Shown here piece by piece: positions 3 through 27,103 of a DNA stretch of 35,875 nt. The position numbers and the translations under genes are program-made. Location: positions 1 through 35,875 of the IMG/VR virus record IMGVR_UViG_3300036770_004416; one strand, written 5' to 3'. The first letter of the stretch is position 1. Every line of letters begins with the position of its first letter. Source of the DNA: a virus. Under the pieces are notes generated by a model. That model saw only the letters and a list, made by a program, of their open reading frames with translations. It ran no database searches and had not been told where the DNA came from.

Positions 3-74
3 ACCTATGGCGATGCCCTGCGCCGCCGCGCAAGCATTTGGGCATCCTGCGATCCCTGTCGCCAATCCGCCTGA
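3..74 (+). CDS. C-terminal end of an upstream gene (partial, unknown)
   Basis: An open frame enters from the left edge and ends at a TGA at 72-74. Its last 23 residues read TYGDALRRRASIWASCDPCR then QSA, rich in Arg and with two Cys. The main support is position: this TGA lies inside a conserved unit (CC TGA T...TGCTA) at the same place as the TGA that ends the next gene at 346-348. That suggests both genes end in the same repeated boundary element. Frames 1 and 2 are also open here, because the DNA is GC-rich, so the frame choice rests only on this parallel. No function can be given. Confidence 0.35.
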   Translation, partial: TYGDALRRRASIWASCDPCRQSA

Positions 75-78
75 TCCG

Positions 79-87
79 TGCTAAGAT
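79..87 (+). promoter_or_regulatory. Extended -10 promoter candidate TGCTAAGAT
   Basis: TG, one base, then TAAGAT matches the extended -10 form of sigma-70 promoters. No -35 is obvious. The predicted start of transcription (about 93-95) would put the following hairpin at the 5' end of the message for the 71-aa gene. The matching element at 353-361 in the second copy supports it. Confidence 0.45.
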
Positions 88-91
88 TCTG

Positions 92-116
92 GGGAACCCG
101 CAAGGGTTCCCTTTTC
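92..116 (+). terminator. GCAA-loop hairpin with T tail, copy 1
   Basis: GGGAACCC (92-99), loop GCAA (100-103), GGGTTCCC (104-111) and then TTTTC. This is a perfect 8-bp GC-rich stem with a short U run, so it could end transcription from the gene stopping at 74. Because a promoter lies just upstream, it could also act as a 5' stem-loop on the new transcript. Confidence 0.6.
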
Positions 117-132
117 ACACCGCTGAAAGACA

Positions 133-348
133 ATGCTCACCATTGACAATTGCTTTGACGCCCAAGACTTCTGCACCTTCTGGGATGCTGCCTACGGCAT
201 GATCTGTGAGGATGACTACATCGAGCGGATCATGGGATGCGCCGATCATGGTTGGGCGCTGGATGCCCTTCTGGATCGCTTCCTAGAGGGTATGACACCA
301 ACCGCTGCCGTTATTGAGATCATCGACGGATACGATCCAACTCCCTGA
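133..348 (+). CDS. Small acidic protein of unknown function, 71 aa
   Basis: I do not recognise this protein. It is 71 residues, clearly acidic, and probably helical, with segments such as FWDAAYGMICEDDYIERIMG and ALDALLDRFLEGMTPTAAVI. There is no signal peptide or membrane segment. It has three Cys (residues 7, 13, 24) and one later in MGCADHG. The ATG at 133 follows a weak purine-rich stretch (GAAAGA, 125-130). The gene sits between two copies of the same promoter-hairpin unit, so it looks like an independently transcribed cassette. Codon use and GC content are much higher than in the structural genes downstream. A small early host-interaction protein would fit the setting, but nothing in the sequence shows this. 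Confidence 0.6.
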   Translation: MLTIDNCFDAQDFCTFWDAAYGMICEDDYIERIMGCADHGWALDALLDRFLEGMTPTAAVIEIIDGYDPTP

Positions 349-352
349 TACC

Positions 353-361
353 TGCTACAAT
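353..361 (+). promoter_or_regulatory. Extended -10 promoter candidate TGCTACAAT
   Basis: TG, one base, then TACAAT, a good extended -10. It lies exactly the same distance (4 bases) upstream of the hairpin stem as the element at 79-87. No -35 is clear. It would drive the DUF6011-like gene. Confidence 0.5.
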
Positions 362-365
362 TATG

Positions 366-390
366 GGGTGCCCGCAAGGGTGCCCTTTTC
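366..390 (+). terminator. GCAA-loop hairpin with T tail, copy 2
   Basis: GGGTGCCC (366-373), loop GCAA (374-377), GGGTGCCC (378-385) and then TTTTC. As RNA the stem closes over 8 pairs with two central G-U wobbles (U369-G382, G370-U381), where copy 1 has A-U pairs. Pairing is therefore kept despite base changes, which points to a function in RNA. Confidence 0.6.
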
Positions 391-411
391 AACCACACCT
401 AAGGTAAGCAA

Positions 412-6466: not shown

Positions 6467-9400
6467 ATGGTACAGAATGGTTTCGAATCAAGGGTAAAAG
6501 TACAGCAAATAATTGATAGTCAATTACCAGAATTTATTTTAGATGAAAGTCCAAAAGCATCTGAATTTTTAAAGCAATATTATGTCTCCCAAGAATATCA
6601 AGGTGGTCCAACAGACATTGTTGAAAATTTAGATCAATACATAAACCTCGATAGTCTCATTCCAGAAGTTATCGTAGGTAATGTTCTTTTAGAAAACAGT
6701 ATTACTGCAACTAGCACTACAATAAATGTAGAAAGTACAAAAGGTTTTCCTTCACAGTATGGTTTATTGAAAATTGATGATGAAATTATAACTTACACCG
6801 GATCCACTGAAACATCTTTCACAGGTTGTATTCGTGGTTTTAGTGGCATTACTAATTATCATAAAGATCTTCAATATGAAGAGTTAGTCTTTAGTGAGTC
6901 TTCGGCAGTAGCACATGCATCTAACAGCACAATTCAAAATTTAAGTTCTTTATTTCTACAAGAATTTTATAAAAAAATTAAGTTTAGTTTAACTCCTGGT
7001 TTAGAATCTACGGATTTTGTAGAAAATTTAAACGTTGGTAATTTTATAAAAGAGGCAAGATCTCTTTATGAATCTAAAGGAACAGAGGAATCATTCAGAA
7101 TTTTATTCAATGTTTTATTTGGAGAAACCCCAAGTGTAATAAATTTAGAAAAATTTCTAATTAAAACCTCAGACTCTAGTTTTATAAGAAGAAATGTAGC
7201 AGTAATTGATGTAATATCTGGAGACCCAACTAAACTAAACGGTCAAACGATTAAAAAATCTACTGATGAAAATACTAGTGGATCTGTATCTGAAGTAGAG
7301 ACAATAACTAGGAAGGGAAAAACTTATTATAAACTTAACTTTTTTGTAGGATATGATGATACTTACCCAAACATTACAGGAACATTTTCAATAACACCAA
7401 ATACTAAGGTCGTTGAAAATGTAACTGTAGATTCTACTGATCATAATGTAATTACAGTAGACTCTACAGTAGGATTTGCAGAGTCTGGATTCCTTCTTTA
7501 TGGTGGAAATCAGATATTTTACACAAGCAAAACTATTAATCAATTTTTAGGATGCTATGTAGATTCTTCAGAATCTATTACAATTAATAAAACATCATCT
7601 TTGACATCTAATGAAACTTATTATGGATATGAAGATGGTGATACATCAAGAAAGGTTGAGTTTAAAATAACTGGAGTTTTATCGGATATTGTAATCGATT
7701 CTGATTTTTATAATATTTCAGAAGGTGAAGAAATATATCCAAAAAATCTTGGACAGATTATAGAAAAGGGAAATAGTCCTAGGCAAATATTTGCAAATAG
7801 TTGGGTATATAACACTAGTTGCAGATATCAAATAGATTCATTTTCTGCAAATACAATCACAACAAAATCTACAATCGATAATACTACTCTAACTGTTGGA
7901 GATAAGATTGAAGTTTTAAGAAGAAATACCGAAACTTTAGTTCCCACTTTTGAAGATCTAACTATATCAGCAATATTTGAAAATGAAATTACTGTTGATG
8001 TAGATACTAGTTCACTATCAATTTTAGATAAGTATGATATTAGGAGAAAGATTAAGAAGGCATCTTCTTCACTGTTGCCCATTGAATTTGGAAATGATAA
8101 GATAACATCAGATGTTCAAAATGTTTATTCAGAAAATTCTAACAGTCTTTATGTAGCTTCTAATTCACTTCCTTCTTATTCTCTACAAACAAATGTTTTT
8201 GAATATACTGTAGTTGGTTTAGAAATTGAAAGTGAAAATCAGGATTATAGTGTTATTAACTTTGGATTTTCTCAAGTAGTTTCTTTTATAACTGGTGATA
8301 AAGTATATTATTATCCAGATGAAAGTGGAGCAATACAAGGTCTAGAGGAAGGAGCATATTATGTTGAAGTCTTGAAAAATAATGATATTGAGATTAATAA
8401 TCGTAGAATTAGACTTTATTTAAGTAATTCTACGGTTGGGTCAGATGATTATGTTTCTTTTGGAAAATTGTCTAATGGCGTTGTCTCAGGAACTCATAAA
8501 TTTATACTATATTCGCAAAGGTCTAAGTTAATTTCTCCACAGAAACTTCTTAAGAAATTTAAAATAGAACAGGAAATTGGAGATAGTAAAAAATATGAAA
8601 CTGTTCCTGGATCTATTGGTCTTTTAAAAAATGGAGTTGAAATATACAACTATAAAACAAATGATAAAATTTATTACGGCCCATTAGATGAAGTTAATGT
8701 TCTAAGTGGTGGAAGTGGGTATGATGTTGTAAACCTACCACTTCTTACCTTATCAAGTGGCAGTGCTCTAGTACAACCCGTAGTAAGTGGATCTGTTGAA
8801 AAAATATTTGTAGATCCTCAAGATTTTGACATTGATGTTGTTGTTTCTATATCATTAACTGGTGGAAATAGTTCTGAAGCAAGTTTTAGTCCAGTTATAG
8901 AAAAATTTGCTAGGGAAATTGAATTTGACGCCAGACCAATTTCTAGTGGTGGTGGACTAGATTTTGAAAATGAAAAAATTGTCTTTACAAAAGCACATAA
9001 TTTGATTGATGGTCAACCAATTATTTACAATCGTAACAATTCTAGTGCCATAGGAATTGGATCTTTTGGTGGATCAAACTTAGACCAGTCCAGAACTTTA
9101 GTAAATGGTGCAACATACTATTCAAAAGTAATTAATGATAAAACTATAGAAATATATGAAAAATTATCTGACTATATTTCTGGAATCAATACAGTAGGAT
9201 TTACTACCATTGGCAATTCTGGAGTTCAAAAATTTAAAACAGAGCAAAAAAATAGACTGACTGGAATTAAAGTTATTAATGGTGGCAAATATACAAATAG
9301 AAAACTTAGAGTAAAACCTACTGGTATATCAACATTTACACATACTATAGAATTTAAAAATCACGGATTTTCTGATGGTGAGATTGTAACTTATAATTAT

Positions 9401-12400
9401 GAAACTTCTGGTATAATTGGATTATCAACTTCAAATAGATATCAAGTATTGAAGTTGGACTCTGATACATTTAGACTATGTAATTCTGGTATTGGTGGGA
9501 CAAATACGATAGACTATGAAGTAAAAAATTATGTAAAATTTTCTACTACTGGAACTGGATATCAAATTTTTAGTTATCCTGATATTGCTTTGTCTGTCGA
9601 TTATACAACTGTTGGATTAGGTAGTACTCAAGTTAGAGGGTCTATTGTTGCAACCCCAGTAATTAGAGGTGAAATAGAGCAAGTTTATGTCTATGAAAAT
9701 GGATCTGATTATGGTTCTTTAGTCTTAAATAAACATCAAAGACCACAAATTATTATTAAGAATGGAAAAGAATCTCAACTTAAACCAATAATTGAAAATG
9801 GCAGAATCATCGATGTAACTATCTTATATGGTGGACAAGATTACTACTCTATTCCCGATTTAATTGTATCTGGTAGTGGAGTTGGTGCAAATCTCAGACC
9901 TGTAGTATCTGGCAATAAAATTGTAGATGTAATTGTCATTAATTCTGGTGCTGGATATAGTGAAACAGATACCGCAATTAATGTCATCCCTGCCGGAAGA
10001 AATGCAATTCTTGAATCTAATGTAAGATCTCTAACTGTTAACAATTCATATAAGTATGGTACTCAATATAGAGATTATAGAGATCCAGCGTCAGAAATAT
10101 TAGTTGAGACTGAAAATAATTTAGAGTATGCAGTTGTTGGTTACTCTGAAAATTTGAAGAGTGGATTAAAAGATACTGGAAATGCTACTACACACTCGGA
10201 TATTATTGGTTGGGCATATGATGGAAATCCAATTTATGGTTCTTATGGGTATTCTAATCCAAATAATTCTGGAAGTGTTAAAAAACTAGAGTCGGGATAT
10301 TCTTTATCTAGTGTTGAAAATCGTCCATCAACTTCAATTTTTCCTGAAGGTTATTTTATTGAAGATTATGAGTTTACGAATAGTGGAGACTTAGACCAAT
10401 ATAATGGCAGATTTGGAAAAACTAAAGATTTTCCAGAAGGTGTATATGCATACTTTGCTACTATTAAAACAAATAATCAACAACAAGTAGTTGGTCAATT
10501 TCCATATTTCATCGGAAATGAGTATAGATCTCCATATATTGAGGAAAATCTTTCATTAAATCAATCATTTGACTTTAATAATTCTTCTCTAATTAGAAAC
10601 ACTTTTCCATATAAAGTAAATGATAAGTATGCTGATAATGACTTTATTGTAGAATCAAATGAAATTATAGAGCAAAAAACTCTAATCGAGTCTGTCTCTT
10701 CTGGTAGTGTCTCTTCATTGCAAGTAGTTAACTCTGGATCTAACTACAAAGTCGGTGATGAAATCTTGTTTGATGAGAGTTCTACAGAGGGCAGTGGAAT
10801 TTATGCAAAAGTATCTAGGGTATTGGGTAAACAAATTAATGAAATTGACACGACCATTGCATCATATAATAATTCTGTAATAACTTGGGAAAATGGAAAT
10901 AAAATCAAGGTATATGTATCTCCATATCACGAATTCCTGAGCGGAGATAACATCAACATATCTGGTCTATCAACCCAAGTTTCTAACTTAAATGGATCTT
11001 ATAGAATAGGACTTACTACTTATTCAACAGTATTAGATAAGCAAATTCCAGCATATGCCTCTACGGGTATAGTTACTGACATTTATCTTTCTTCAATACC
11101 CGAAAATGTTTCTGTTGGAAGTAGTTTTAAAATAGATAGTGAGACTTTCTCTGTTCTCAATGTTTATAATAACTTTGGTGTTGTAAAGGCGGTTAGAAAT
11201 TCTGCTGGAGGAATACATACTCAAACATCGCCAGTATACTTCCTTTCAAATTCATTTACGGTTAATAAGTCTACTGATTATTTTGAGTCTAAAGTAAATG
11301 ATAAAGTTTATTATAATCCCACAAAATCTGTGGGGATTGGCACTACAGTTGGAACTGGAATAAATGTTAATTACAGTATTGGTATAACAACATATAATAC
11401 CTTTATTCCAACTCAAAGTATTTTCATACCAAATCATCCTTTTACAACTGGACAGCAAGTAATTTTTAGAAAACCATCTGGAGCTGATCCAATAGCAGTA
11501 TCTGATACTCCTACAAATTCTCCATTTAATATTTTAAGTTCTAGTAGTCAAACTTTATATGCAATTAACAAATCTAAAGATTTTATTGGTATTGTAACTA
11601 ATGTCGGACTTACTACAAGTACAAATGGTCTATTCTTTAGAAATACTAGTTGGACAGCGGCAAATGATAACTACCAATATTCTATAGAGTCTAATTTTAA
11701 TCAAGTTAAAGCAGATGTTAATAAAATAAATGCAATTGTTTCTGTATCAACTTCCCATAATTTAAAAGTCGGAGACAATGTTTCTCTAGTTGTCAAACCT
11801 AATCTGTCAGTTGGTGTAGGTACTTCAACTTCAGTAAGGATTAAACGCAGTAGTTTGACTGATAGTATTATTGTAAATCCGATTAAATTTAGTTATCTGG
11901 GAATTAACACTACAACTAATCAGATCACAATAAATTCTCACGGTCTTAAAACTGGAGATAAAATTATATATCAGTCTGCTTCTATTCCTTCTGGCATACA
12001 AACTGGCAGTTACTATGTTTATAGAGTAGATGACAATACTATAAAACTGTCAGAGACTTATTTACAATCAATTGATAAGTCACCAACATTTGTAAGTTTT
12101 ATAAGTACTGGGTCTGGAGACCAAGAAATTAGTCTTGTAAATCCAAGAATTGAATCTATAAAAAATAATAATTTAGTATTTGATTTATCTGATTCATCAC
12201 TTTCTGGATATAATTTTAAAATCTACTATGATAGAGAATTTAAAAAAGAATTTGTTTCAGTTGCAACTACCGAGTCTTTATCACTTTCTGGTGTTGGAAC
12301 TGTAGGAGTATCTACAAACGCTTCATTAACTCTAAATTATACAAATTCTGTACCAGAAAAACTGTATTACAATTTAGAAAAATCTGGATATATTAGCACT

Positions 12401-15400
12401 GCAGATACTGATGTTGTTAATTATTCTGAGTTATCATTCTTTGATAGTGCTTATAATGGAAATTATAGTATAGTGAGTGTAGGAAACACAACATTTACAG
12501 TTTCTTTGAGAAAAACTCCAGAAAATACAAACTATCAAAGAAGTGAATGTGATGTATTGGAGTATAATACCAATTCTACTTCAGCAACTGGAGGAATTAG
12601 TCAAACAAATCTTATTTCTGGTGGATATGGATATAAATCTCTCCCTCGCTTTACAGGTTCTAATTCTGTAAGCGGTGAAGGAGCATTTATTATTCCATCT
12701 TCCGATACCATTGGTAAAATAGTTCAAAGTAGAATTATAAATGAAGGTTTTGAATATGCTTCAGATAAAACTTTGAGACCAACGGCCTCTATTCCCCAAT
12801 CACTTTATATTTCTTCATCAAATACCATTGACACTATTTCTATTAAAAACGGTGGACAAAATTATACATCTGCTCCAGATTTAATTTTAGTTAATTCTAA
12901 TACTGGAGAACTTATTGACTCTGGTTTCTTAAAAGCATCTTTAACAGGATCTTCTATTGGTAAAGTAAACATTGAAGTAGAACCAAAAGGTTTACCAATT
13001 AAACCAGTTACAATCAGATCAATTAACAATTCTAACTCAATATCAATAGAGAAAGTAGAATCTTCGTCTTCTGGAATAGTTACATGTATTTTAACTACCC
13101 CAATTGCAGGATTTTCAACTGCTCCTTTTGCAGTTGGAGATAGAATATTTGTTGAAGGAATTGAAAAGACAGATTCTTCTGGGGATGGATTTAACTCTAA
13201 AGATTATGGATATCAATTTTTTACAATAACAAATTATCTTGAGTTAAGTAAGCATAAATTAGAGTTTAATATTTCTGGTTTAACAACTAATCCTGGAGTA
13301 GCAAAAACAATTCAAGAATCTTATGCATCTATTACAAATTATAAAAATTATCCAGAGTTTGAAGTTGTACAAAAATTCTTACCATTTACCATTGGAGAAA
13401 CTTTAGAATCTGATAGTGGACTTGGGTTTGTACCTAGAGACTTGATTGTTACTGCATGTGATGAAAATATTTTAAAGGTAAATGGAAATTATAAAGTTTC
13501 TCCAAATGAGAGAATAAGAGGTTCAGAGTCTTTTACTGAAGCAACAGTCGATTTAGTTAATACCATTGATGGAATTTATAATATTAATTACTTCAATCTT
13601 CAAAATTTTGGATGGAATGAAGAATCTGGCAAACTTAACAACGATACACAAGTAATTCCAGATAGTGACTACTATCAAAACCTTTCATATAGTGTAAAGA
13701 GTAGTAAAACTTGGGATGAAATAGTAACTCCCGTCAATAATTTATTACATACCAGTGGCACTAAGAATTTTGCGGACACTCAATTAATTGAGAATTCTCA
13801 ATCTGGAATAGGGACTACAGAGTCTACATCTGTAGTGTCTGTTATTAATATGTTTGTTGATGATAATAGAGTTGATACTATTAATAATTTTGATCTTTCT
13901 AGTGATGTAGATACTATAGGAGATAGATCAAAATTTGTAAGATTTAAGAATATTAGACTTTCAGACTACATTCTATGTAAAACTAATAGAGTTTTAAAAA
14001 TTGATGATATCAGTTCAGAGTTTTCTAGTTCTGACGACGAAAGGGAAGTAGTATCAAATATACTTCCCCTGAATTTATCTAATGGATATAATAAATTTTT
14101 AATCCAGGTAAAAAATGTATTTAATAATGAAACTCAATTTAGTGAAATAGTTTCTATTAATGACTCTCAGGACATTCTCACATTTTATAAGGGAGAATTT
14201 ACTACAGGCACTACTGGATATGGGTCAACTATATTTGATTCAGATTTATTATTGGCAAATATTAGGGGATATGTTGATGAGGAAGGCACATTTTATCTAA
14301 GATTTGAACCAGAAGATCCATTTGATTCGGATTTTGATATTAAGATATTACAGGATACCTTTACTGATAGGACGGGAATTGGGTCTACTCAAAGTTTAAA
14401 CTGTATTGACTTAATATCTCAAAATAAAGTTGTTAATACTGGAATAACTACATCTATCATTGAATTAGATTCTGCAAAATATTCTTCTGTTTATGCTAAC
14501 ATACATGTTTTAAATAATGATAGTTCTAATATGAATTATGTTGAAATTTATTTAACTCATGATGGTTCAGATACTTACATTACTGAATATTATTTTGACA
14601 ATGAAGATGGAGAAAGTTATGGTCATATAGGATCATTTGGTGCTTCATTGAGTGGAGGAATATTATCTTTAAATTATACAAATACAGAATCTGAAACAAT
14701 AACAGTCAGATCTAAAAATGTTGGATTTGGCACCACAGCACTAGGTGGAGATTTCTATAGATTTAAACTTGCAGGTCAAATAGATGGAAATGAAAGAACT
14801 GTTGTTTTTGAGTCAAACTATAACAATGTCTCTTCTGGATCTACAAGTGTAATTACTTTAGATAAATCTCTGTTTACATCAATAAAGTCTGTGGTTCGTA
14901 TTGGACTGGGAGAAACTAGTGCTTTGCATCAAGTAATGACAGTTTATGATGGATCAAACGTTTCTACCTTACAGTATCCATTTTTATCTATTGGAAGCAC
15001 TAGTGGAATAGGAACTTTTGGTGCAGAGATTGATTCTACAAACATCACACTTAATTTTTACCCAGATCCTTCTATTTCTGGTAATATTGAAATAATATCA
15101 TTTAATGAATGTTTCTACACTGATTTAGATGTCGTAAATATTCCCCCAGATTTAACTTATTCTCCAGTAAGACAATCTGTAAATATTGCAAAATACTTTG
15201 GTGTTAACTCTCCATTTATTAATAAATTAGATTTTGAAGCAAACTATGAAGGTGATTCAATATTCATGAAAACTTTCAATCCCTCAATTTCTGTAGGATC
15301 TACGACGGGAATAATAACAGCTTCAAATCACTTCTTTAACACTGGAGAAGAGTTAATTTATAGACCGAAATCTACCTTTATTGGTATCGGAGCTTCTGCT

Positions 15401-18226
15401 TTAGGTATAGGTGCAACAGAAAATTATGTTGGAGTAGTCACTACCATACTCCCAGAAGTTGTCTATGCAATTAGAGAAACTTCCAATACATTAAGACTAG
15501 CAACTAAAAAAGAGTATGCCGAGCAAGGAATTGGAGTAACTTTCACTTCTTTAGGTATTGGTAATGCTCATGAATTAGAAATGTTTAAAAAGAATGAGAA
15601 GTCTTTAATAACAATTAATAATCTAGCACAATATCCAATTTCATATTCTTATATAACACATACCTTATCAAACAATGGTGGTCAAATCGGAACTGCATCA
15701 ACAATTTTTGCTTTAAGTGGAATTAGTTCTATTAAACCCACTGACTTGTTAAAAATTGATGATGAATTTGTAAGAATTGAAAATGTTGGATTAGGTACTA
15801 CAAGTATAGGGCCAATATCATTTACAGGAAATATTCCTTTGGTTGAAGTTACTAGAGGGTTCGTAGGGTCTATTGCTGGATTGCATACAGATACTTCAAT
15901 TGCTAGAGTCTATAGAGGATCATATAATATTTCCGGAAATAAAATCTACTTTACTCAACCACCAAGAGGAAATCAACTTGATTTAATTGGACAAGATGAA
16001 AATGCTCTTCCAAGAGAAAGGGCAACATTTAGTGGTAGAGTATTTCTAAGACAAGACTATACTTCAAATCAATTATATGATGATATATCAGACCAGTTTA
16101 CTGGTATTGGACAAACTTTCGTATTGACCAGTCAAGGAATTAATACAGTTGGATTAGGAACTAGTGGAGGAAATGGTATTGTATTCATCAATAGTATTTT
16201 CCAGTCTCCAACCACATTTAACAATTCTGGAAATAATTACATAATTGGAGAAAATTTAGTATCCGGAATAACAAGTATTACATTTACTGGAATTAGATCC
16301 GATAGTGATTTATACACTTCAGATTATGACATCAATATGAATCAATTGCCTCGTGGTGGAATTATTGTTTCTTTAGGATCTACTTCAGGTCTTGGATATG
16401 CACCTCTTGTAGGAGCTTCTGTGACCGCAGTAATGGGCGGTGGAGGGTCTATTGTCTCAGTTGGACTTGGTACTCAGGACATACTTGGATCTGGTTATAG
16501 AGGAAGCGTTTCTGTAGCGATTACAGAGTCTGGACATACAGGTTCTGTTGCAACTATTAATGCTTCTGTTGGTGCTGGAGGAACTCTATCATTCAATGTA
16601 GTTAATGGTGGAAGTGGATATTCTAATCCCACAATTAATATTTCTTCACCATCATATGAGAATTTGCCAGTTATAGGTGTTTCTCGTCTTGGTGTTGGAG
16701 CAACTACAGAAACTGGAGTTGGATTGTTGTTAAATGTTGAAGTAGGTGCAAGTTCGACTACAGGAATAGGGTCAACGTATTTTGAAGTAACCAATTTTAA
16801 AATCACAAGAAATGGATATGGATTTAGAAGAGGTGATGTATTTAAACCTGTGGGATTGGTGACTGATGCGAGTTTGGCATCTCCAATAAGTGAATTTGAA
16901 TTAACTGTGCTTGATACTTTTAGTGATTCATTTGCTGCTTGGCAGTTTGGTGAATTGGACTATATTGATTCTATCAAAAATTATCAAAATGGTACAAGAA
17001 CTAGATTCCCACTATTTTATCAGTCTGAGTTGTTGAGTTTTGAGGTTGATGAAGAAACAATTGACTCTCAATTGATAAACTTAGATTCGGTTCTTTTAAT
17101 ATTTGTAAATGGAATATTGCAAGAACCCGGAAGTTCCTATCAGTTTAGTGGTGGAACTTCATTTACCTTCACTGTTGCACCAAAACCTGAAGATGACATA
17201 GCAGTATTCTTCTATAGGGGAACTAAAGGGCAAGATAGTGTGGATGAAAGTGTCACAGAAACAATCAAGGTTGGCGACACCATACAAATATTCAGTAATA
17301 ATAGTATTTCAAATACAATTACTCAAAATAAGAGAACTGTATATGATATTGCAGGATCTGATAGGGTAGAAACTAACTTATACAATGCACAAGGTATTGA
17401 TGAGATTAACGATAAACCACTTTATTGGACTAAACAAAAAGTTGATTTATCAATCAATGGCGATATCGTCTCTAAATCTAGAGATTCTATAGAACCTCAA
17501 GTTTACCCAACTGCTAATATTATAGGTAGTTTAGATTCTACTGATACTGAAATATTTGTGGACGATTCTTCACTATTCAACTATGAAAATGAGTCTCCAA
17601 TCAATTTTGGTGCGATTCTCTTTACAAATACAAATGTTGGAATAGCAACTACAGACTTCTCAACACAGTTTGAAGTTGTCTCTGGAATTTCTGATGTCGA
17701 AGGATTTAATGCTTCAGTTGTGGGAATTGCAACTACTACTGGAATTGGTCATCCTTTAGCAATTAAATTTACTTTGAGTAGACAGTCTGGAACTTTCCCA
17801 GATCTTCAGGTTGGATATCCTGTTTATATCTCAAACACTACCGTAGGAAGTGGAGTGACCTCAGTTGATACTTCTGATTCTAATGTTGTTGCTATTAGCA
17901 CATCAAATTTAAATAATGTTTATAAGATTCATGCATTTAATGCAGCGACAGGAATTATGACCTGTAATGTTTCTTCAAACACTTCTATCGTTGGAATTGC
18001 AACTACAGGAACTCTTAACTATCCAGTAGGTAAAATGAGTTGGGGTAGATTGTCTGGATTTAGCAGGTCTTCATCGCCAATTTCAATCGCAGTTACTGGG
18101 TATGTATCAAGTGCAGGTATAAGTAGTGAAAGTTATAGTGCAGGATTATCAACTTACCCAATTATTCAAAGAAGAGGGTTTGGATTGAGAAGCAATGGTT
18201 CATTAATAAAAGATAAGTTATCATGA
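6467..18226 (+). CDS. 7: Giant gp7-type baseplate wedge protein, 3919 aa, with YHYH-like domain
   Basis: Position between gp6 and gp8 and the N terminus (QIIDSQLPEFILDESPKASE..., about 1-260) identify it as the cyanophage counterpart of T4 gp7, the wedge initiator, which is only 1032 aa. Visible modules: a surface module at about 85-130 (INVESTKGFPSQYG, DDEIITYTG, CIRGFSG); repeated strand-turn units such as VLSGGSGYDV (about 745) and VVNGGSGYSNPTINIS (about 3380); a YHYH-like domain at about 1240-1335 (IIGWAYDGNPIYGSYGY, LDQYNGRFGKTKDFPEGVYA); many GIGTT/GLGTS turns; and a C-terminal module with FVNGILQEPGSSYQF (about 3546). No coiled coil or membrane segment is seen. The protein probably forms an elongated beta-rich arm of the baseplate. 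Base use is uniform with its neighbours and the frame is unbroken over 11.8 kb. The identity of the N terminus is firm; the functions of the inner modules are inferred. Confidence 0.88.
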   Translation: MVQNGFESRVKVQQIIDSQLPEFILDESPKASEFLKQYYVSQEYQGGPTDIVENLDQYINLDSLIPEVIVGNVLLENSITATSTTINVESTKGFPSQYGLLKIDDEIITYTGSTETSFTGCIRGFSGITNYHKDLQYEELVFSESSAVAHASNSTIQNLSSLFLQEFYKKIKFSLTPGLESTDFVENLNVGNFIKEARSLYESKGTEESFRILFNVLFGETPSVINLEKFLIKTSDSSFIRRNVAVIDVISGDPTKLNGQTIKKSTDENTSGSVSEVETITRKGKTYYKLNFFVGYDDTYPNITGTFSITPNTKVVENVTVDSTDHNVITVDSTVGFAESGFLLYGGNQIFYTSKTINQFLGCYVDSSESITINKTSSLTSNETYYGYEDGDTSRKVEFKITGVLSDIVIDSDFYNISEGEEIYPKNLGQIIEKGNSPRQIFANSWVYNTSCRYQIDSFSANTITTKSTIDNTTLTVGDKIEVLRRNTETLVPTFEDLTISAIFENEITVDVDTSSLSILDKYDIRRKIKKASSSLLPIEFGNDKITSDVQNVYSENSNSLYVASNSLPSYSLQTNVFEYTVVGLEIESENQDYSVINFGFSQVVSFITGDKVYYYPDESGAIQGLEEGAYYVEVLKNNDIEINNRRIRLYLSNSTVGSDDYVSFGKLSNGVVSGTHKFILYSQRSKLISPQKLLKKFKIEQEIGDSKKYETVPGSIGLLKNGVEIYNYKTNDKIYYGPLDEVNVLSGGSGYDVVNLPLLTLSSGSALVQPVVSGSVEKIFVDPQDFDIDVVVSISLTGGNSSEASFSPVIEKFAREIEFDARPISSGGGLDFENEKIVFTKAHNLIDGQPIIYNRNNSSAIGIGSFGGSNLDQSRTLVNGATYYSKVINDKTIEIYEKLSDYISGINTVGFTTIGNSGVQKFKTEQKNRLTGIKVINGGKYTNRKLRVKPTGISTFTHTIEFKNHGFSDGEIVTYNYETSGIIGLSTSNRYQVLKLDSDTFRLCNSGIGGTNTIDYEVKNYVKFSTTGTGYQIFSYPDIALSVDYTTVGLGSTQVRGSIVATPVIRGEIEQVYVYENGSDYGSLVLNKHQRPQIIIKNGKESQLKPIIENGRIIDVTILYGGQDYYSIPDLIVSGSGVGANLRPVVSGNKIVDVIVINSGAGYSETDTAINVIPAGRNAILESNVRSLTVNNSYKYGTQYRDYRDPASEILVETENNLEYAVVGYSENLKSGLKDTGNATTHSDIIGWAYDGNPIYGSYGYSNPNNSGSVKKLESGYSLSSVENRPSTSIFPEGYFIEDYEFTNSGDLDQYNGRFGKTKDFPEGVYAYFATIKTNNQQQVVGQFPYFIGNEYRSPYIEENLSLNQSFDFNNSSLIRNTFPYKVNDKYADNDFIVESNEIIEQKTLIESVSSGSVSSLQVVNSGSNYKVGDEILFDESSTEGSGIYAKVSRVLGKQINEIDTTIASYNNSVITWENGNKIKVYVSPYHEFLSGDNINISGLSTQVSNLNGSYRIGLTTYSTVLDKQIPAYASTGIVTDIYLSSIPENVSVGSSFKIDSETFSVLNVYNNFGVVKAVRNSAGGIHTQTSPVYFLSNSFTVNKSTDYFESKVNDKVYYNPTKSVGIGTTVGTGINVNYSIGITTYNTFIPTQSIFIPNHPFTTGQQVIFRKPSGADPIAVSDTPTNSPFNILSSSSQTLYAINKSKDFIGIVTNVGLTTSTNGLFFRNTSWTAANDNYQYSIESNFNQVKADVNKINAIVSVSTSHNLKVGDNVSLVVKPNLSVGVGTSTSVRIKRSSLTDSIIVNPIKFSYLGINTTTNQITINSHGLKTGDKIIYQSASIPSGIQTGSYYVYRVDDNTIKLSETYLQSIDKSPTFVSFISTGSGDQEISLVNPRIESIKNNNLVFDLSDSSLSGYNFKIYYDREFKKEFVSVATTESLSLSGVGTVGVSTNASLTLNYTNSVPEKLYYNLEKSGYISTADTDVVNYSELSFFDSAYNGNYSIVSVGNTTFTVSLRKTPENTNYQRSECDVLEYNTNSTSATGGISQTNLISGGYGYKSLPRFTGSNSVSGEGAFIIPSSDTIGKIVQSRIINEGFEYASDKTLRPTASIPQSLYISSSNTIDTISIKNGGQNYTSAPDLILVNSNTGELIDSGFLKASLTGSSIGKVNIEVEPKGLPIKPVTIRSINNSNSISIEKVESSSSGIVTCILTTPIAGFSTAPFAVGDRIFVEGIEKTDSSGDGFNSKDYGYQFFTITNYLELSKHKLEFNISGLTTNPGVAKTIQESYASITNYKNYPEFEVVQKFLPFTIGETLESDSGLGFVPRDLIVTACDENILKVNGNYKVSPNERIRGSESFTEATVDLVNTIDGIYNINYFNLQNFGWNEESGKLNNDTQVIPDSDYYQNLSYSVKSSKTWDEIVTPVNNLLHTSGTKNFADTQLIENSQSGIGTTESTSVVSVINMFVDDNRVDTINNFDLSSDVDTIGDRSKFVRFKNIRLSDYILCKTNRVLKIDDISSEFSSSDDEREVVSNILPLNLSNGYNKFLIQVKNVFNNETQFSEIVSINDSQDILTFYKGEFTTGTTGYGSTIFDSDLLLANIRGYVDEEGTFYLRFEPEDPFDSDFDIKILQDTFTDRTGIGSTQSLNCIDLISQNKVVNTGITTSIIELDSAKYSSVYANIHVLNNDSSNMNYVEIYLTHDGSDTYITEYYFDNEDGESYGHIGSFGASLSGGILSLNYTNTESETITVRSKNVGFGTTALGGDFYRFKLAGQIDGNERTVVFESNYNNVSSGSTSVITLDKSLFTSIKSVVRIGLGETSALHQVMTVYDGSNVSTLQYPFLSIGSTSGIGTFGAEIDSTNITLNFYPDPSISGNIEIISFNECFYTDLDVVNIPPDLTYSPVRQSVNIAKYFGVNSPFINKLDFEANYEGDSIFMKTFNPSISVGSTTGIITASNHFFNTGEELIYRPKSTFIGIGASALGIGATENYVGVVTTILPEVVYAIRETSNTLRLATKKEYAEQGIGVTFTSLGIGNAHELEMFKKNEKSLITINNLAQYPISYSYITHTLSNNGGQIGTASTIFALSGISSIKPTDLLKIDDEFVRIENVGLGTTSIGPISFTGNIPLVEVTRGFVGSIAGLHTDTSIARVYRGSYNISGNKIYFTQPPRGNQLDLIGQDENALPRERATFSGRVFLRQDYTSNQLYDDISDQFTGIGQTFVLTSQGINTVGLGTSGGNGIVFINSIFQSPTTFNNSGNNYIIGENLVSGITSITFTGIRSDSDLYTSDYDINMNQLPRGGIIVSLGSTSGLGYAPLVGASVTAVMGGGGSIVSVGLGTQDILGSGYRGSVSVAITESGHTGSVATINASVGAGGTLSFNVVNGGSGYSNPTINISSPSYENLPVIGVSRLGVGATTETGVGLLLNVEVGASSTTGIGSTYFEVTNFKITRNGYGFRRGDVFKPVGLVTDASLASPISEFELTVLDTFSDSFAAWQFGELDYIDSIKNYQNGTRTRFPLFYQSELLSFEVDEETIDSQLINLDSVLLIFVNGILQEPGSSYQFSGGTSFTFTVAPKPEDDIAVFFYRGTKGQDSVDESVTETIKVGDTIQIFSNNSISNTITQNKRTVYDIAGSDRVETNLYNAQGIDEINDKPLYWTKQKVDLSINGDIVSKSRDSIEPQVYPTANIIGSLDSTDTEIFVDDSSLFNYENESPINFGAILFTNTNVGIATTDFSTQFEVVSGISDVEGFNASVVGIATTTGIGHPLAIKFTLSRQSGTFPDLQVGYPVYISNTTVGSGVTSVDTSDSNVVAISTSNLNNVYKIHAFNAATGIMTCNVSSNTSIVGIATTGTLNYPVGKMSWGRLSGFSRSSSPISIAVTGYVSSAGISSESYSAGLSTYPIIQRRGFGLRSNGSLIKDKLS

Positions 18227-19831: not shown

Positions 19832-22800
19832 ATGGCACAAAAGACAAACCTAAATGTAAGTCCTTATTTTGATGACTTTGATGCTCAAAAGGAATTTTAT
19901 AAAGTTCTTTTTAATCCAGGAAAACCAATACAAGCAAGAGAATTAAATAATATTCAATCAATATTACAAAATCAGATTGAATCTTTTGGAAGTCATATAT
20001 TTAAAGAAGGATCTGTAGTAATTCCAGGAAATACTACTTATGATTCCAATTTTTATTCGGTAAAATTAAATCCAACTTCCTTTGGTGTTAATATATCTGC
20101 ATATATTAATCAGTATGTTGGCAAACTAATAGAAGGGCAGATATCAGGAGTTACTGCCACAGTACAGAAAGTTGAAATTCCAGATTCAATTAATGGACTA
20201 GATTATGTTACACTCTATGTAAAATATATTGACTCTGATAATGATTTTAATTTCAATCCATTTCAAAATGGCGAATCTTTAGTTTCAAGCGAAAGTATTG
20301 TTTATGGAAATACTACAATCGCATCTGGCACACCCTTTGCATCTTTAATTCCTGAGGATGCAACTTCAACAGGTTCTGCAGTTTCTATTGATGATGGAAT
20401 TTATTTTGTAAGAGGAACTTTTGCGAACGTATCTAAGCAAACTATTATTCTTGACTATTATTCCAATACCCCATCATATAGAGTAGGTCTAAAAGTAACG
20501 GAAGAGATAGTAACTGCCAAAGACGATGCTTCATTATATGATAATGCTAAAGGGTTTACTAATTATGCTGCACCTGGAGCAGATAGATTTAAGATAAATT
20601 TATCTCTCAGTAAAAAAACAATTGATAGTGTAGGTACTGACACCGATTTTATAGAAATTCTTAGAATTGAAAATGGCGAGATTAAGAAAGTTAATACTAA
20701 AACACAATATTCGGTAATAAGAGACTACTTAGCACAAAGGACTTTTGATGAGTCTGGAAATTATTCCGTAGAACCATTTAAAATTTCTTTACATAATTCT
20801 CTTAATGATAGACTTGGAAATGACGGTTTATTTTTTGATGGTCAAAAAACAGAATCTGGAGGCACACCGTCTGATGATTTGATGTGTATCAAATTGTCCC
20901 CAGGAAAGGCATATGTAAAAGGTTACGATATTGAAAAATCTACAACTACTATCTTAGATGTAAGTAAACCAAGAGAAACTCAGAGTGTAGAAAATGTAAA
21001 TGTTCCCTTTGAAATGGGAAATCTGATCAGAATTAATAATATAACAGGATCTCCAAAACAAAATAATTCTGTAGAACTTCATTCCGTCAGAAGAAGTTCT
21101 TCCGGAAATCCTAATTCAAGCACTAAGATTGGAGATGCTAAAGTTTATAATTTCAGATTGACTGATGCTGCATATTCTGGAGCATCTACCAATTGGGATC
21201 TATATCTTTATGATATACAAACTTATACCACTTTAGTATTAAATCAATCTTTATCTGCAAGTCAGTTACCATTATCATCATATGTGAAAGGAAAAAGTAG
21301 TGGTGCAAGTGGTTATACCTCTGCCGCTGGAAATGACACTACAACAATTAAAGTAAGACAAACTTCTGGCACTTTTATTGTAGGTGAGCAAATAATTATC
21401 AATGGTCTGGAATTATATCCCAGATCTATCGCACAAATTACGGTCTATGACAGCACAGATATTAAGCAAGTTTATCAACCAGATATTACTACATCATTTA
21501 TTGGAGATTCTATATTAGACAGACAACTTCCAATAGGATTCAATGCTTCTGATACAATTAATATTTCTGCCGGCGGTGTAGTAACTTCTCCAGGTAAGGT
21601 TTTTGATACTATTAAACCAGGATCAATAATAAGATATCAATCACCTAGTAGTAATGACGAAACTTTTAATGTAGTTTCGAGTGTAAGTTCGACTGGCACT
21701 TCAATGACTGTTAGTGCAGTTACTACGGTCAATGGTGTCTGTAATGGCACTGTAGGAGTTGCAACAAATGTATCATTTAGTCTAGGAATTCCCAAAATTA
21801 GAAATTCTGATAAAGGATACTTATATGCAGAATTGCCAAATACAAATGTATCTCAGGTAAATTTAAATAGTTCTGTTATTACTTTTAGTGCCCAATCAAC
21901 CTCATCAAAAACTGTTTCTTCTGGAAAAATAACATTATCCGTTTCTGACTTTTCGCTTCCTTCAGGTTTAACAACCGCATTATTTGCACCTTTTGACGAA
22001 GAGCGTTATTCTGTGCATTACAAAGATGGAACTACACAATCTTTAACCTCAGATCAATTTTCTTTATCATCTAATCAAGTAGTTTTATCAAATCTTACAA
22101 ATGGAAAATCAACATTATTAATTAATGCAACTTTTGTTAAAAATGGCGTACAGAGTAAACAAAAGCAATTTAATCGTAGTGGAACTATAAATGTAGTTTA
22201 TTCTAAGTTTCCAGAGTCGGGAACAGGAATCAGCACTTCTATCAATGATGGTTTAGTATACAATCAGTATTATGGTCTTAGAGTCCAGGATGATGAAATT
22301 TCACTTAATTATCCTGATGTATCGACAGTAGTGGCAGTTTATGAATCACTAGATACATCAAATCCAACGTTGGACACTTTATCATTCGATTCTATTCTTA
22401 ACATTGGCAATAATGCAATTATAGGTGAAAATATTTTAGGCAATGATAGTGGTTGTGTTGCTAGAGTAGTAACTAGATCTACAAATAGTGTTGGAATTGT
22501 CTATTTAAATTCTAATAGATTTAACAATAATGAAGTTGCAACTTTCCAAGAGTCAAATATTGTTGGAGACATAAACTTCATAACCCCCGGAAATTATAGT
22601 GATATTACTAATAGATTTAGTTTAGATAAAGGGCAGAAAGAGCAATACTACGATTATTCTAAACTTATCCGTAAAGAAGGAGAAACAGCACCTTCAAAGA
22701 GACTTTTAGTTGTATTTGATTACTATAGTGTCCCTTCGACTGATAATGGTGATGTATTTACTTCTGGAAGTTATAACAAGGAACAATTTACTTCTAATAT

Positions 22801-25800
22801 TCCTTTGATTGGAAATAATATTAGAGCGACAGATACTTTAGATTTTAGACCTAGAGTTTCAGTTTTTTCTGGAAATACGTCTTCACCATTCGATTTTCCT
22901 AACAGAGATTTTAGTTCTTCAATTAAATTAAACTTAACCCCAAATGAGAGTACTATTATTGGATATGACTACTATGTAGGTAGAGTTGATAAAATTTATC
23001 TGAGTAAGACTGGGGAATTTGTTTACTTAAAGGGCACCTCATCAATTAACCCTCAGTCACCATCAAAGACTGATGATTTAATGGAATTGGGAACAATTAC
23101 CCTTCCACCTTACCTATACAGTGTCAAGGATGCTGTATTGTCACTCGTAGATAATAGAAGATATACTATGAGAGACATTGGATTAATTGAAAACAGGGTT
23201 AAAAATCTTGAAAGAGTAACTTCACTATCTCTCTTAGAGTTAAGTACACAAACACTCCAAATACAAGATTCTGATGGTTTTAACAGATTTAAAACAGGAT
23301 TTTTTGTAGATGATTTTAAAGATTCTTCAAGAATAAACGGACTTTTCTCTTCTGTTGAGATTGATTCTGATTCTCAAGAGATGAGACCTGTTATCTCCAG
23401 AAATAGTTTAAAAAATTATCTTGCACCAGCGCAAAATATAACAAACGAGACTGTAGATTTATCTACTAACTATGAGTTATTAGATTCTAATGTCCAAAAA
23501 ACTGGTACTACAGTAACACTTAAGTATGAATCTGAAAAGTGGATATCACAACCACTGGCAACTCAAGTTGAAAATGTAAATCCATTTCATGTTGTATCTT
23601 ATACTGGCACAATAAAACTTTCGCCTGAGAGAGATAATTGGGTTAGAACTGTACAATTACCAGATAAGACTATTTCTGTTACTGATTATGTCTTAATTGA
23701 AAGAGATGAAATTGAGTTGAGAAATAGAAGACGTAGGGTGAGAAATGATGATAGAGTGGGGCAAAGAAGGACAAGAGTTAGAGGAGTAAATCAGAGAGTA
23801 AATGATAGTGTAGAATCAACAACTGAAACTTCAGTTGACAATATTCTAGTAGAGTCTAGTAATGAAGAGTATATGAGATCTAGAAACACTGAGTTTTCTA
23901 TTTCAAATTTAAAGCCACACACTAGATATTATCAATTCTTAGATGGAAATGGTTCTGTAGATTTTATTCCAAAACTTATTGAAATTTCAAATAGTGTAAG
24001 TTTACAAAACTATGGAGCATCTTCAGCATTTACTGTTGGCGAAACTGTTTTTGGATATGATTCTCAAAATAATAAAATTATTTCGTTTAGAGTTGCAAAA
24101 TCTAACCACAAATTTGGAACATACAATTCCCCAACAACAACCTTTAATGTAAATCCATATATTAAAGATGAGTCTCTGCCTAGTGAATATAGTGCGTCAT
24201 CAAAAGTGTTAAATGTAGACACTTTCTCTTTGTCAGAGGAAGCACAAGGTCTTTATTCTGGTTACCTAGTAAAGGGTGCAAAACTTATTGGACAATCTAG
24301 CGGTTCTATTGCATATGTTAAAGATTTGAGATTAATATCTGATAGTCTTGGCGATTTAATAGGTTCTTTCTTTATTAGAGATCCAAATACTTCACCAGCA
24401 CCAGATGTAAGGATTAATACTGGAACTAAAACTTATAAAGTTACATCAAGTCCTACAAATGAAACTGCTGTTTCTGGAAGTACTTCTGTTTCTACAGCAG
24501 AAACTAACTATGCATCTGAAGGAATTTTAGAGTTGTATGAAAGAACTATTACAAATAGAACTACGGAAACAACAACTAGAACAACTACTACTAGAATACG
24601 TACAGTAACAACTAGGTTTATTAGGGAGCGTAGACGAGAAGACCCTCTTGCACAGACTTTTACAATCGATGAAAATGAACCAGGAGCATTTTTAACTAGT
24701 ATAGATCTTTTCTTCTATAAAAAAGATACTAATAATAATCCACTAACCGTAGAGATAAGAAATGTAGAACTTGGTACTCCAGCATCACTGATACTTGGAA
24801 ATCCAGTTACTCTTAGACCTGACGAAATAAACATATCTGATGATGCATCCGCAGTAACAAAAGTAACATTTGACTATCCAATTTATCTTGCTCCAGGATT
24901 GGAATATGCAATCGTACTTCTTGCCCCTGAAAGTATAGAATACGAAGTTTTTATTGCAGAAATGGGTAAGAAAACCATCCAATCTGCAAATTTACCTGAT
25001 GCAAGTGCAAGCACATATAGTCAACAATTTGCTATGGGAAGTCTATTCAAATCCCAAAATGGATCTATATGGACTGCAAATCAATATCAAGATATGAAGT
25101 TTACTTTATATCGCGCAAACTTTGTTACAGACACTCCATCTACAGCATATTTTTACAATCCAACATTGAATGAAAGCAATGGATACATTAAAAATCTTCA
25201 AAATAATCCTATAACAGCATTGCCCAAGTTGTTAAGTGTTGGTATTACAACCACTACTGATTCAAGCACTATTGGAATTCTAACTACTGGAAGAAAAATA
25301 AGTGAGAGTTTAAAAACTTATAATTATGGATATATTGTTGGCACTGGATGCTCAGCATCTTCTGTAGGAGTAACAACAAGTGGGTTTAATTATGTTACAG
25401 ATACTAATGTATCAACATTTAATGTTATTGGTAACGGATCTGGTCTCACTTTAAATATTACTGATACTGACGGCAAAATTACCAATGCAACAATTGTAAA
25501 TCCAGGAAATGGTTATGCGATTGGAGATGTTGTTGGTATTGTAACTTCTTCAGTTTCCAGTAACAGTGGAAGAGGTGCTACTATAACAATTACTGGAAAT
25601 AATAACGGTGTTGATACTTTATATCTAACTAATGTGCAGGGAGAATCATTTACAGACACTGGAAATGAAAATCTGATTTATTACAATGATTCTAATGCTG
25701 CGGTAACTCTGGGGTCAATTTATATTAGAAGCTCCACTCCAGTTGGATCTGTTAACAGTGGAAACTTTATCAAAGTCAACCATTTTAATCATGGAATGTA

Positions 25801-27103
25801 TGCTGCTAATAACAAAGTTTCTATTTCTGGCGTTTTACCAACCGTTATCCCAACCACACTATCTCAATCTATAACTGCATCTTCTACATCAATTTCTGTC
25901 GCAAGCACTGCAAATTTTGTAACTTTTGAAGGTAAAGCAGTTAGTGGAAGTAATCCCGGATATGCCATTGTAGAGAATGAAATTATCAGGTATGAAAGTA
26001 TTGGGTCTGGAACATTAGAAACAATAACAAGAGCACAATCATCTACACTTGCAGTGCCTCATGACACTAATGCACAAGTCTATAAGTATGAATTTAACGG
26101 AGTTTCCTTAAGAAGAATCAATACAACTCATGATATTAGTGATGTTGGTTTAGACATTGATAGTTACTATATTGAAATTGATAGAGAATTAAATGGAGTA
26201 GATAGAAGTGTTGATGGGACTCCTGTAGGATATCCCCAACTTTCATTTGCAACAGAATTAAATTCTGGAGGAAATAAAGTTTTTGCAACAGAAAACATTC
26301 AATATGACTCTATTATACCATTTTATAATATTGTATCACCTACAGATGCTGTTTCAGTTTCTGCTAAAATCAGAAGTGTAAGTGGAACTAGTGTATCTGG
26401 AAATGAAGTATCATTTACTGATTTAGGTTATGAAGATATACAGTTGAATTCCCTAAACCAACTGTCCTCTACAAGAATCGTTTGCTCTAAAGCAAATGAA
26501 GATACTTATCTAACTGCTCTTCCAAGAAATAAATCATTTACAACTACAGTTACTTTACAAACAACAAATAAGTATGTTTCCCCCCAAATATTCTTAGACA
26601 GTTGTTTTACTGATTTCCATAGCAATAGAATTAATTCTCCAATATCTAATTATTCAACAGATAGTAGAGTTAATTCGCTTATTGATGACCCACATTCTTC
26701 TGTTTATGTTTCCAATACAGTCAGATTAGCTCAACCTGCAACTTCTCTAAAGGTTATACTATCTGCATATAGACATTCTTCAGCAGATTTTAGATTACTC
26801 TACAGTTTGATTAGACCAGACTCTAGTGAAGTTGATCAAGCATTTGAATTATTCCCAGGATATGATAATTTAACCGTGGATAATAATAATGATGGATATC
26901 TTGATGTTGTAGATCCTGCGAATAATAGTGGATTACCAGATGTGTTTGTTCGTTCCAGCAAAGAAAATGAATTTTTAGAATATGAATTTTCTGTTAACAA
27001 CGTTGGGGAATTTGTTGGCTATGCGATTAAGATTGTAATGTCATCTACTAATCAAGCATATCCACCAAGATTTGCAGATTTAAGGAGTATTGCAATCAGA
27101 TGA
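19832..27103 (+). CDS. DUF4815-type virion structural protein, 2423 aa
   Basis: The N terminus NVSPYFDDFDAQKEFYKVLF then NPGKPIQARELNNIQSILQN and GSHIFKEGSVVIPG is the hallmark of DUF4815, found in large tail or baseplate proteins of cyanophages. A second recognisable block starts near residue 1603 (DPLAQTFTIDENEPGAFLTS, PLTVEIRNVELG, EYAIVLLAPESIEYEVFIAE) and is a common tail-protein module. Between them are two unusual charged stretches: an Arg-rich one (about 1290-1327, RNRRRRVRNDDRVGQRRTR) and a Thr/Arg-rich one (about 1572-1605, RTTETTTRTTTTRIR). Near 2020 is a SISVASTANFVTF...VENEIIRYESIGSG module like that at the N terminus of gp7. It takes the place that T4 gives to gp9 to gp12, so it may serve as the outer baseplate or fibre-attachment protein; that is inference. 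The next gene overlaps by 4 bases. Confidence 0.85.
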   Translation: MAQKTNLNVSPYFDDFDAQKEFYKVLFNPGKPIQARELNNIQSILQNQIESFGSHIFKEGSVVIPGNTTYDSNFYSVKLNPTSFGVNISAYINQYVGKLIEGQISGVTATVQKVEIPDSINGLDYVTLYVKYIDSDNDFNFNPFQNGESLVSSESIVYGNTTIASGTPFASLIPEDATSTGSAVSIDDGIYFVRGTFANVSKQTIILDYYSNTPSYRVGLKVTEEIVTAKDDASLYDNAKGFTNYAAPGADRFKINLSLSKKTIDSVGTDTDFIEILRIENGEIKKVNTKTQYSVIRDYLAQRTFDESGNYSVEPFKISLHNSLNDRLGNDGLFFDGQKTESGGTPSDDLMCIKLSPGKAYVKGYDIEKSTTTILDVSKPRETQSVENVNVPFEMGNLIRINNITGSPKQNNSVELHSVRRSSSGNPNSSTKIGDAKVYNFRLTDAAYSGASTNWDLYLYDIQTYTTLVLNQSLSASQLPLSSYVKGKSSGASGYTSAAGNDTTTIKVRQTSGTFIVGEQIIINGLELYPRSIAQITVYDSTDIKQVYQPDITTSFIGDSILDRQLPIGFNASDTINISAGGVVTSPGKVFDTIKPGSIIRYQSPSSNDETFNVVSSVSSTGTSMTVSAVTTVNGVCNGTVGVATNVSFSLGIPKIRNSDKGYLYAELPNTNVSQVNLNSSVITFSAQSTSSKTVSSGKITLSVSDFSLPSGLTTALFAPFDEERYSVHYKDGTTQSLTSDQFSLSSNQVVLSNLTNGKSTLLINATFVKNGVQSKQKQFNRSGTINVVYSKFPESGTGISTSINDGLVYNQYYGLRVQDDEISLNYPDVSTVVAVYESLDTSNPTLDTLSFDSILNIGNNAIIGENILGNDSGCVARVVTRSTNSVGIVYLNSNRFNNNEVATFQESNIVGDINFITPGNYSDITNRFSLDKGQKEQYYDYSKLIRKEGETAPSKRLLVVFDYYSVPSTDNGDVFTSGSYNKEQFTSNIPLIGNNIRATDTLDFRPRVSVFSGNTSSPFDFPNRDFSSSIKLNLTPNESTIIGYDYYVGRVDKIYLSKTGEFVYLKGTSSINPQSPSKTDDLMELGTITLPPYLYSVKDAVLSLVDNRRYTMRDIGLIENRVKNLERVTSLSLLELSTQTLQIQDSDGFNRFKTGFFVDDFKDSSRINGLFSSVEIDSDSQEMRPVISRNSLKNYLAPAQNITNETVDLSTNYELLDSNVQKTGTTVTLKYESEKWISQPLATQVENVNPFHVVSYTGTIKLSPERDNWVRTVQLPDKTISVTDYVLIERDEIELRNRRRRVRNDDRVGQRRTRVRGVNQRVNDSVESTTETSVDNILVESSNEEYMRSRNTEFSISNLKPHTRYYQFLDGNGSVDFIPKLIEISNSVSLQNYGASSAFTVGETVFGYDSQNNKIISFRVAKSNHKFGTYNSPTTTFNVNPYIKDESLPSEYSASSKVLNVDTFSLSEEAQGLYSGYLVKGAKLIGQSSGSIAYVKDLRLISDSLGDLIGSFFIRDPNTSPAPDVRINTGTKTYKVTSSPTNETAVSGSTSVSTAETNYASEGILELYERTITNRTTETTTRTTTTRIRTVTTRFIRERRREDPLAQTFTIDENEPGAFLTSIDLFFYKKDTNNNPLTVEIRNVELGTPASLILGNPVTLRPDEINISDDASAVTKVTFDYPIYLAPGLEYAIVLLAPESIEYEVFIAEMGKKTIQSANLPDASASTYSQQFAMGSLFKSQNGSIWTANQYQDMKFTLYRANFVTDTPSTAYFYNPTLNESNGYIKNLQNNPITALPKLLSVGITTTTDSSTIGILTTGRKISESLKTYNYGYIVGTGCSASSVGVTTSGFNYVTDTNVSTFNVIGNGSGLTLNITDTDGKITNATIVNPGNGYAIGDVVGIVTSSVSSNSGRGATITITGNNNGVDTLYLTNVQGESFTDTGNENLIYYNDSNAAVTLGSIYIRSSTPVGSVNSGNFIKVNHFNHGMYAANNKVSISGVLPTVIPTTLSQSITASSTSISVASTANFVTFEGKAVSGSNPGYAIVENEIIRYESIGSGTLETITRAQSSTLAVPHDTNAQVYKYEFNGVSLRRINTTHDISDVGLDIDSYYIEIDRELNGVDRSVDGTPVGYPQLSFATELNSGGNKVFATENIQYDSIIPFYNIVSPTDAVSVSAKIRSVSGTSVSGNEVSFTDLGYEDIQLNSLNQLSSTRIVCSKANEDTYLTALPRNKSFTTTVTLQTTNKYVSPQIFLDSCFTDFHSNRINSPISNYSTDSRVNSLIDDPHSSVYVSNTVRLAQPATSLKVILSAYRHSSADFRLLYSLIRPDSSEVDQAFELFPGYDNLTVDNNNDGYLDVVDPANNSGLPDVFVRSSKENEFLEYEFSVNNVGEFVGYAIKIVMSSTNQAYPPRFADLRSIAIR

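Follow-up and report, generated by a model that had tools for sequence, protein, structure and literature searches.

The 5' end of the window, as we call the whole 35,875-base virus fragment from IMG/VR that was analysed, carries two copies of a unit of about 45–50 bases, which probably serves, as read from its sequence, as a ready-made connector that ends one gene and starts the next. We put the probability at about 70% that this unit is a cassette boundary resembling the promoter-early stem-loops (PeSLs) of T4-type phages, in which a stop codon, a hairpin acting as terminator or cap, a host-type extended -10 and the start of a leader are combined, and at which recombination swaps genes. The elements of the unit, its copies, the covariation of its stem, the strand-specific placement of its -10 box and the exchange junctions were all obtained by computation. 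Small accessory genes come and go rapidly in phages, which raises the question of how a new one arrives with its expression signals in place; if the reading is correct, a repeated boundary bearing all four signals (stop, terminator, promoter, leader) would allow any gene to be exchanged whole. Among sequenced phages, one of them the isolate S-SRM01, islands of such boundaries offer numerous natural replicates, which makes the idea testable.

The window comes from a T4-like freshwater cyanophage near the Kyanoviridae member S-SRM01, judging by gene content and synteny: its downstream part carries genes for SpeD (S-adenosylmethionine decarboxylase), gp25 and a gp6-like baseplate wedge protein, and the isolate closest to it at the DNA level, the freshwater Synechococcus phage S-SRM01, has a matching gene order around SpeD, gp25 and gp6. 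G+C content falls from 0.57 to 0.44 within the first ~850 bases and is about 0.28–0.41 over the next 5 kb; the two units are the final two joints of this G+C-rich island of small genes, directly 5' of the SpeD/gp25/gp6 genes. An Rfam search of the window gave 0 matches, and a tRNA search of it found none. The nearest relative, L002, has an almost identical version of the long intergenic stretch at 832–1063, of which S-SRM01 conserves parts (76% in pieces). An ORF at 1324–1818 has a weak HNH endonuclease match, below the Pfam cut-off; at its counterpart in L002 an A run is one A shorter, which would shift the frame. Two very long ORFs, at 6467–18226 and 19832–27103, encode 3919 and 2423 aa, and the S-SRM01 gene at the position matching the former is annotated as baseplate wedge initiator.

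The features of the two units and their surroundings are listed below, with the evidence in brackets.

71–121, + strand: unit copy 1 (A type), with stop codon, extended -10, hairpin, T tract and ACACC (pattern, covariance model, 12-unit alignment).
72–74, + strand: TGA stop of the preceding ORF (sequence).
79–87, + strand: TGCTAAGAT, extended -10-like box, predicted +1 near G94 (sequence; box enrichment before island hairpins).
91–115, + strand: hairpin GGGGAACCC-GCAA-GGGTTCCCT with TTTT tail, terminator-like, the stem base overlapping the predicted start (covariation, folding, likeness to phAPEC8).
92–99/104–111, + strand: stem of copy 1, plus a G91–U112 wobble; loop GCAA at 100–103 (sequence).
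112–121, + strand: TTTT tail at 112–115, C116, then ACACC at 117–121 (sequence).
117–132, + strand: leader beginning ACACC, 5' of the start codon of gene 133–348 (sequence).
133–348, + strand: P0002, a 71-aa ORF enclosed by the two units (ORF; DNA match in L054).
345–399, + strand: unit copy 2 (B type) (pattern, covariance model, 12-unit alignment).
346–348, + strand: TGA stop of the preceding ORF (sequence).
353–361, + strand: TGCTACAAT, extended -10-like box, predicted +1 near G368 (sequence; box enrichment before island hairpins).
365–389, + strand: hairpin GGGGTGCCC-GCAA-GGGTGCCCT with TTTT tail and two mid-stem G-U pairs (covariation, folding).
366–373/378–385, + strand: stem of copy 2, plus G365–U386; loop GCAA at 374–377 (sequence).
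386–399, + strand: TTTT tail at 386–389, C390, then ACACC at 395–399 (sequence).
412–831, + strand: conserved downstream gene, 139 aa, with a DUF6011 domain, the fixed anchor for comparing relatives (ORF, homologues).

In both copies a TGA stop is followed by four bases, the box TGCTANNAT, a short spacer, a G-rich hairpin with a GCAA loop, TTTT, a C and a leader with ACACC, and the copies are 83% identical over 48 nt. The first-pass annotation had described this shared design at 71–121 and 345–399, and it was borne out: the unit pattern, with up to 3 mismatches, matched at these two places and no others in the window, with 0 matches expected in shuffles, and a covariance model returned the two units alone (E 1e-17 and 1e-15), the next best match, at E 0.05, being this hairpin read from the opposite strand. 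All elements are as it had described them, including a distance of 4 bases from the -10 to the 8-bp stem in both copies; the distance from stem to ACACC, however, is not the same, as copy 2 has 4 extra bases, AACC. The RNA folding energy is -17.1 kcal/mol for copy 1 and -16.3 kcal/mol for copy 2, with z-scores of -4.2 and only -2.0, respectively, the latter with a U-G/G-U pair in mid-stem. The B-type hairpin of copy 2 forms in + strand RNA, as its two G-U pairs would turn into A-C mismatches in RNA from the opposite strand. A simple terminator scan of the window listed neither unit, since the T tract is just TTTT followed by C.

The anchor gene has 51 relatives in IMG/VR, and further copies, which the first-pass annotation proposed to look for with a covariance model, do exist: units of the window family lie before or near its homologue in L002, L003 and L005 (two each) and in L010, L011, L022 and L026. 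Strong matches are confined to few records, with 1–2 copies each, and thus form a narrow sequence family. When 12 units were aligned, the 9-bp stem was paired in 108/108 cells, with 6 cells of double-sided (compensatory) change against 1.0 in column shuffles, and pairing dropped to 38–74% when the partner arm was slid. One stem position is A-U, G-C or U-G and another is G-C or A-U, such that pairing is kept in + strand RNA; the -10 box is invariant at most positions across the same alignment. A near-identical hairpin occurs in phage phAPEC8, where it is annotated as a putative terminator (ARNold). Among the matches listed for isolated phages, there was no cyanophage match to the window unit; nearly all were coliphages, and the matches span the hairpin only. 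At L010 34–55, a B-type promoter is joined to an A-type stem with the loop TTGC, the reverse complement of GCAA, indicating a hybrid or a flipped hairpin. A host origin of the unit was considered and dropped: a relaxed pattern gave 8 matches in 84,980 prokaryote genomes, 0 of them cyanobacterial, and these were judged to be chance. A wider unit pattern also matched unrelated viral contigs, and those inspected (L059, L064, L066, L069) were without a cassette array.

The view that each gene is a self-contained cassette is well supported, as gene content changes exactly at the units. L002 is 91.5% identical to the window over 345–2900, and colinear homology stops at 345, the edge of unit 2. Copy 2 of the window (344–391) is identical to unit 1 of L002 (48/48, 100%), and copy 1 matches unit 2 of L002 at 98%, so that the order is reversed, B first and A second in L002, and the genes between the paired units are unrelated. 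Homology to the window starts at 344–345, the 5' edge of the unit, for L002, L003, L005 and L011, and at its 3' edge for L004 (391) and L006 (385). Where L003 has unit, gene and unit, L005 has a single unit, a difference of one gene plus one unit. The gene at 133–348 was also found in another phage, L054, cut at the same two edges: region 114–348, from leader to stop codon, matches L054 2483–2713 with 87% DNA identity and sits there between units of the opposite architecture, hairpin then -10. We further compared junctions upstream of the DUF6011 anchor among 21 loci, which give 210 non-independent pairs and include two or three loci cut by a contig end. Colinear homology ended no more than 35 nt from the start codon in 148/210 pairs, at 36–80 nt in 54 and beyond in 8; its end point thus falls within the leader or at the unit for 202/210 pairs. 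Neighbour genes of the islands vary among relatives, as in a non-core region. Junctions at units may also result from selection for clean joints and not from recombination at the units.

Among relatives, a G-rich hairpin is present in most gene gaps of the stretch upstream of SpeD/gp25, and whole-record scans showed the hairpins clustered in one island with a G+C content of 0.44–0.57, within genomes of 0.34–0.36. For counts of -10 boxes we used 147 G-rich, de-duplicated hairpins from the islands of related loci; the counts overstate independent events, because related loci are not independent, and they use the hexamer alone with no -35 box required, an extended -10 by itself being weak promoter evidence. 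A -10 hexamer lay 0–4 nt upstream of the stem, in the window order, at 40/147 hairpins (shuffled flanks, mean 9.3, maximum 18; opposite strand, 2), and 3–11 nt downstream of it at 74/147 (shuffled flanks, mean 19.1; opposite strand, 21). Because both positions exceed the shuffles, we distinguish two architectures, -10 then hairpin and hairpin then -10 (Type I), the latter dense in L054/L055; S-SRM01 has hairpins of either kind. Hexamer positions peak at 1–3 nt before and 8–10 nt after the stem, and 17 hairpins have hexamers on both sides. ACACC or ACCAC is found 3' of 83/147 hairpins, and many have T-rich tails.

Other patterns were observed in these islands. A conserved GTGAC(A/G)GTCTGACAACTGGCACAA-like stretch precedes many hairpin-first units (L003, L005, L006, L008, L011, L021–L023, L028, L053); an extra upstream stem in this Type I motif, GTGAC...GGCAC, was discarded, as no consistent pairing was seen by eye. 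In marine phage S-SM2, AGTGGCACAG stands before a terminator-like hairpin (L138, about 690–730). A recurrent hairpin, AAGGGGGGC-loop-GCCCCCTTT, has TATACTT-like boxes on both sides (L003 875, L005 3734, L011 3737, L024 2891, L053 3021) and is followed by a shared GGCAGG(T/G)... stretch; it may be a small RNA or a terminator that works in both directions.

From these sequences we infer promoter activity, termination, start sites and the recombination pathway. Within about 50 bp, the small gene upstream would receive its stop codon and, in a hairpin plus short T tract, an element that terminates or caps its transcript, and the next gene would receive a host-type extended -10 to start it and the beginning of its CA-rich leader. 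As the -10 precedes the hairpin, the new transcript would start within the 5' arm, near 94 and 368, if +1 is taken as seven bases after the -10 (G94, G368). Read-through RNA would form the full 9-bp hairpin (-17.1 and -16.3 kcal/mol), and newly started RNA would retain no more than about 6 bp, right at its 5' terminus (-9.6 and -8.8 kcal/mol). For all -10-first hairpins, the mean folding energy changes from -15.6 kcal/mol for the full hairpin to -5.7 kcal/mol from the predicted start. One hairpin could thus stop upstream transcripts yet spare its own, a step that is conditional on the assumed start position. Since unit sequence is common to joints and phages, homologous recombination at the units could swap, insert or delete single genes and leave the expression signals undisturbed.

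The claim of the first-pass annotation that one element ends a transcript and starts the next is thus upheld in part. Stem covariation, strand-specific -10 boxes and the phAPEC8 hairpin favour it, but the T tract, just TTTT then C, is the main weakness of reading the hairpin as a terminator, and the putative terminator and promoter overlap because the predicted start falls inside the stem. Another explanation, which we regard as unlikely, is that the hairpin belongs to the downstream mRNA as a 5'-terminal stem that protects it from 5'-end-dependent RNases or attenuates it, upstream termination being incidental. With +1 seven nt after a -10 at a fixed distance 5' of the hairpin, the window RNAs would open with the 6-bp stem and have no unpaired 5' end, and a CA-rich leader follows 3' of the hairpin. 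However, many relatives with the same order keep just 1–4 bp after the predicted start, which leaves no 5' stem, and in other relatives the hairpin precedes the -10 and cannot be in the new mRNA.

The units might also be terminators only, with TGCTANNAT a chance or compositional box and the genes transcribed from elsewhere. The likeness to annotated terminators (phAPEC8) and the T-rich tails behind many island hairpins agree with this, but pre-stem -10 hexamers are about four times as frequent as in shuffles and about twenty times as frequent as on the other strand, and most positions of the box do not vary among the 12 aligned units, so that we consider it improbable, even more so than an mRNA stem. 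It is more doubtful still, and in our view very improbable, that the repeat has no transcriptional role and is kept purely as a recombination site or is selfish. Swapped units at 98–100% identity and junctions at unit edges would be expected of such a repeat, but compensatory stem changes and strand-specific -10 placement point to a function in RNA and transcription, and differing stem sequences serve the same joints. We thus favour a cassette boundary with both signals. A bolder version of it, offered tentatively and doubtful on present evidence, would have a promoter nested in a terminator whose hairpin acts on read-through RNA only and which, together with homology at unit edges, gives freshwater cyanophages of the T4-like kind a gene-cassette array that needs no integrase.

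The closest known systems are the PeSLs of T4-type phages RB49, phi1 and others (Arbiol 2010; Comeau 2014; both through passages of PMC4503421), and few PeSL-type elements are reported from marine cyanophage S-PM2 (PMC4503421). The S-SRM01 genome paper makes no mention of promoters or terminators (PMC8557907). Intergenic repeats of halovirus HF2 are likewise repeated promoter-bearing elements in a tailed virus, but their promoters are archaeal, and passages of PMC8707807 on them do not describe promoter-terminator hairpins. Within the same cyanophage islands, Type I units share with the window units the gene joints, a G-rich hairpin, a CACACC leader and, in L054/L055, a stop codon at the unit start, and differ in the reverse order, hairpin before -10. 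When RB49 and phi1 units were read with the same code as the window units, RB49 PeSLs opened with the terminator, which was followed by TTGACA and, starting about 35–43 nt after the stem, a TATAAT-type -10. The PeSL stem-loop is reportedly an effective terminator with a promoter active early, and recombination between units is said to yield small DNA circles. In contrast to the RB49 stem-loop upstream of a full -35/-10 promoter, the window units have a lone extended -10 before and overlapping the hairpin, a short T tract and a G+C-rich island. They share with PeSLs a T4-like phage, a short composite of stem-loop and (here predicted) sigma70-type promoter, enriched by position and strand, in gaps between small non-core genes, a hyperplastic location, with hairpins in one island whose neighbours vary, and gene shuffling between related phages with junctions at the units. 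Because the predicted role is PeSL-like and the order differs from that of RB49, we class the window unit as a PeSL variant.
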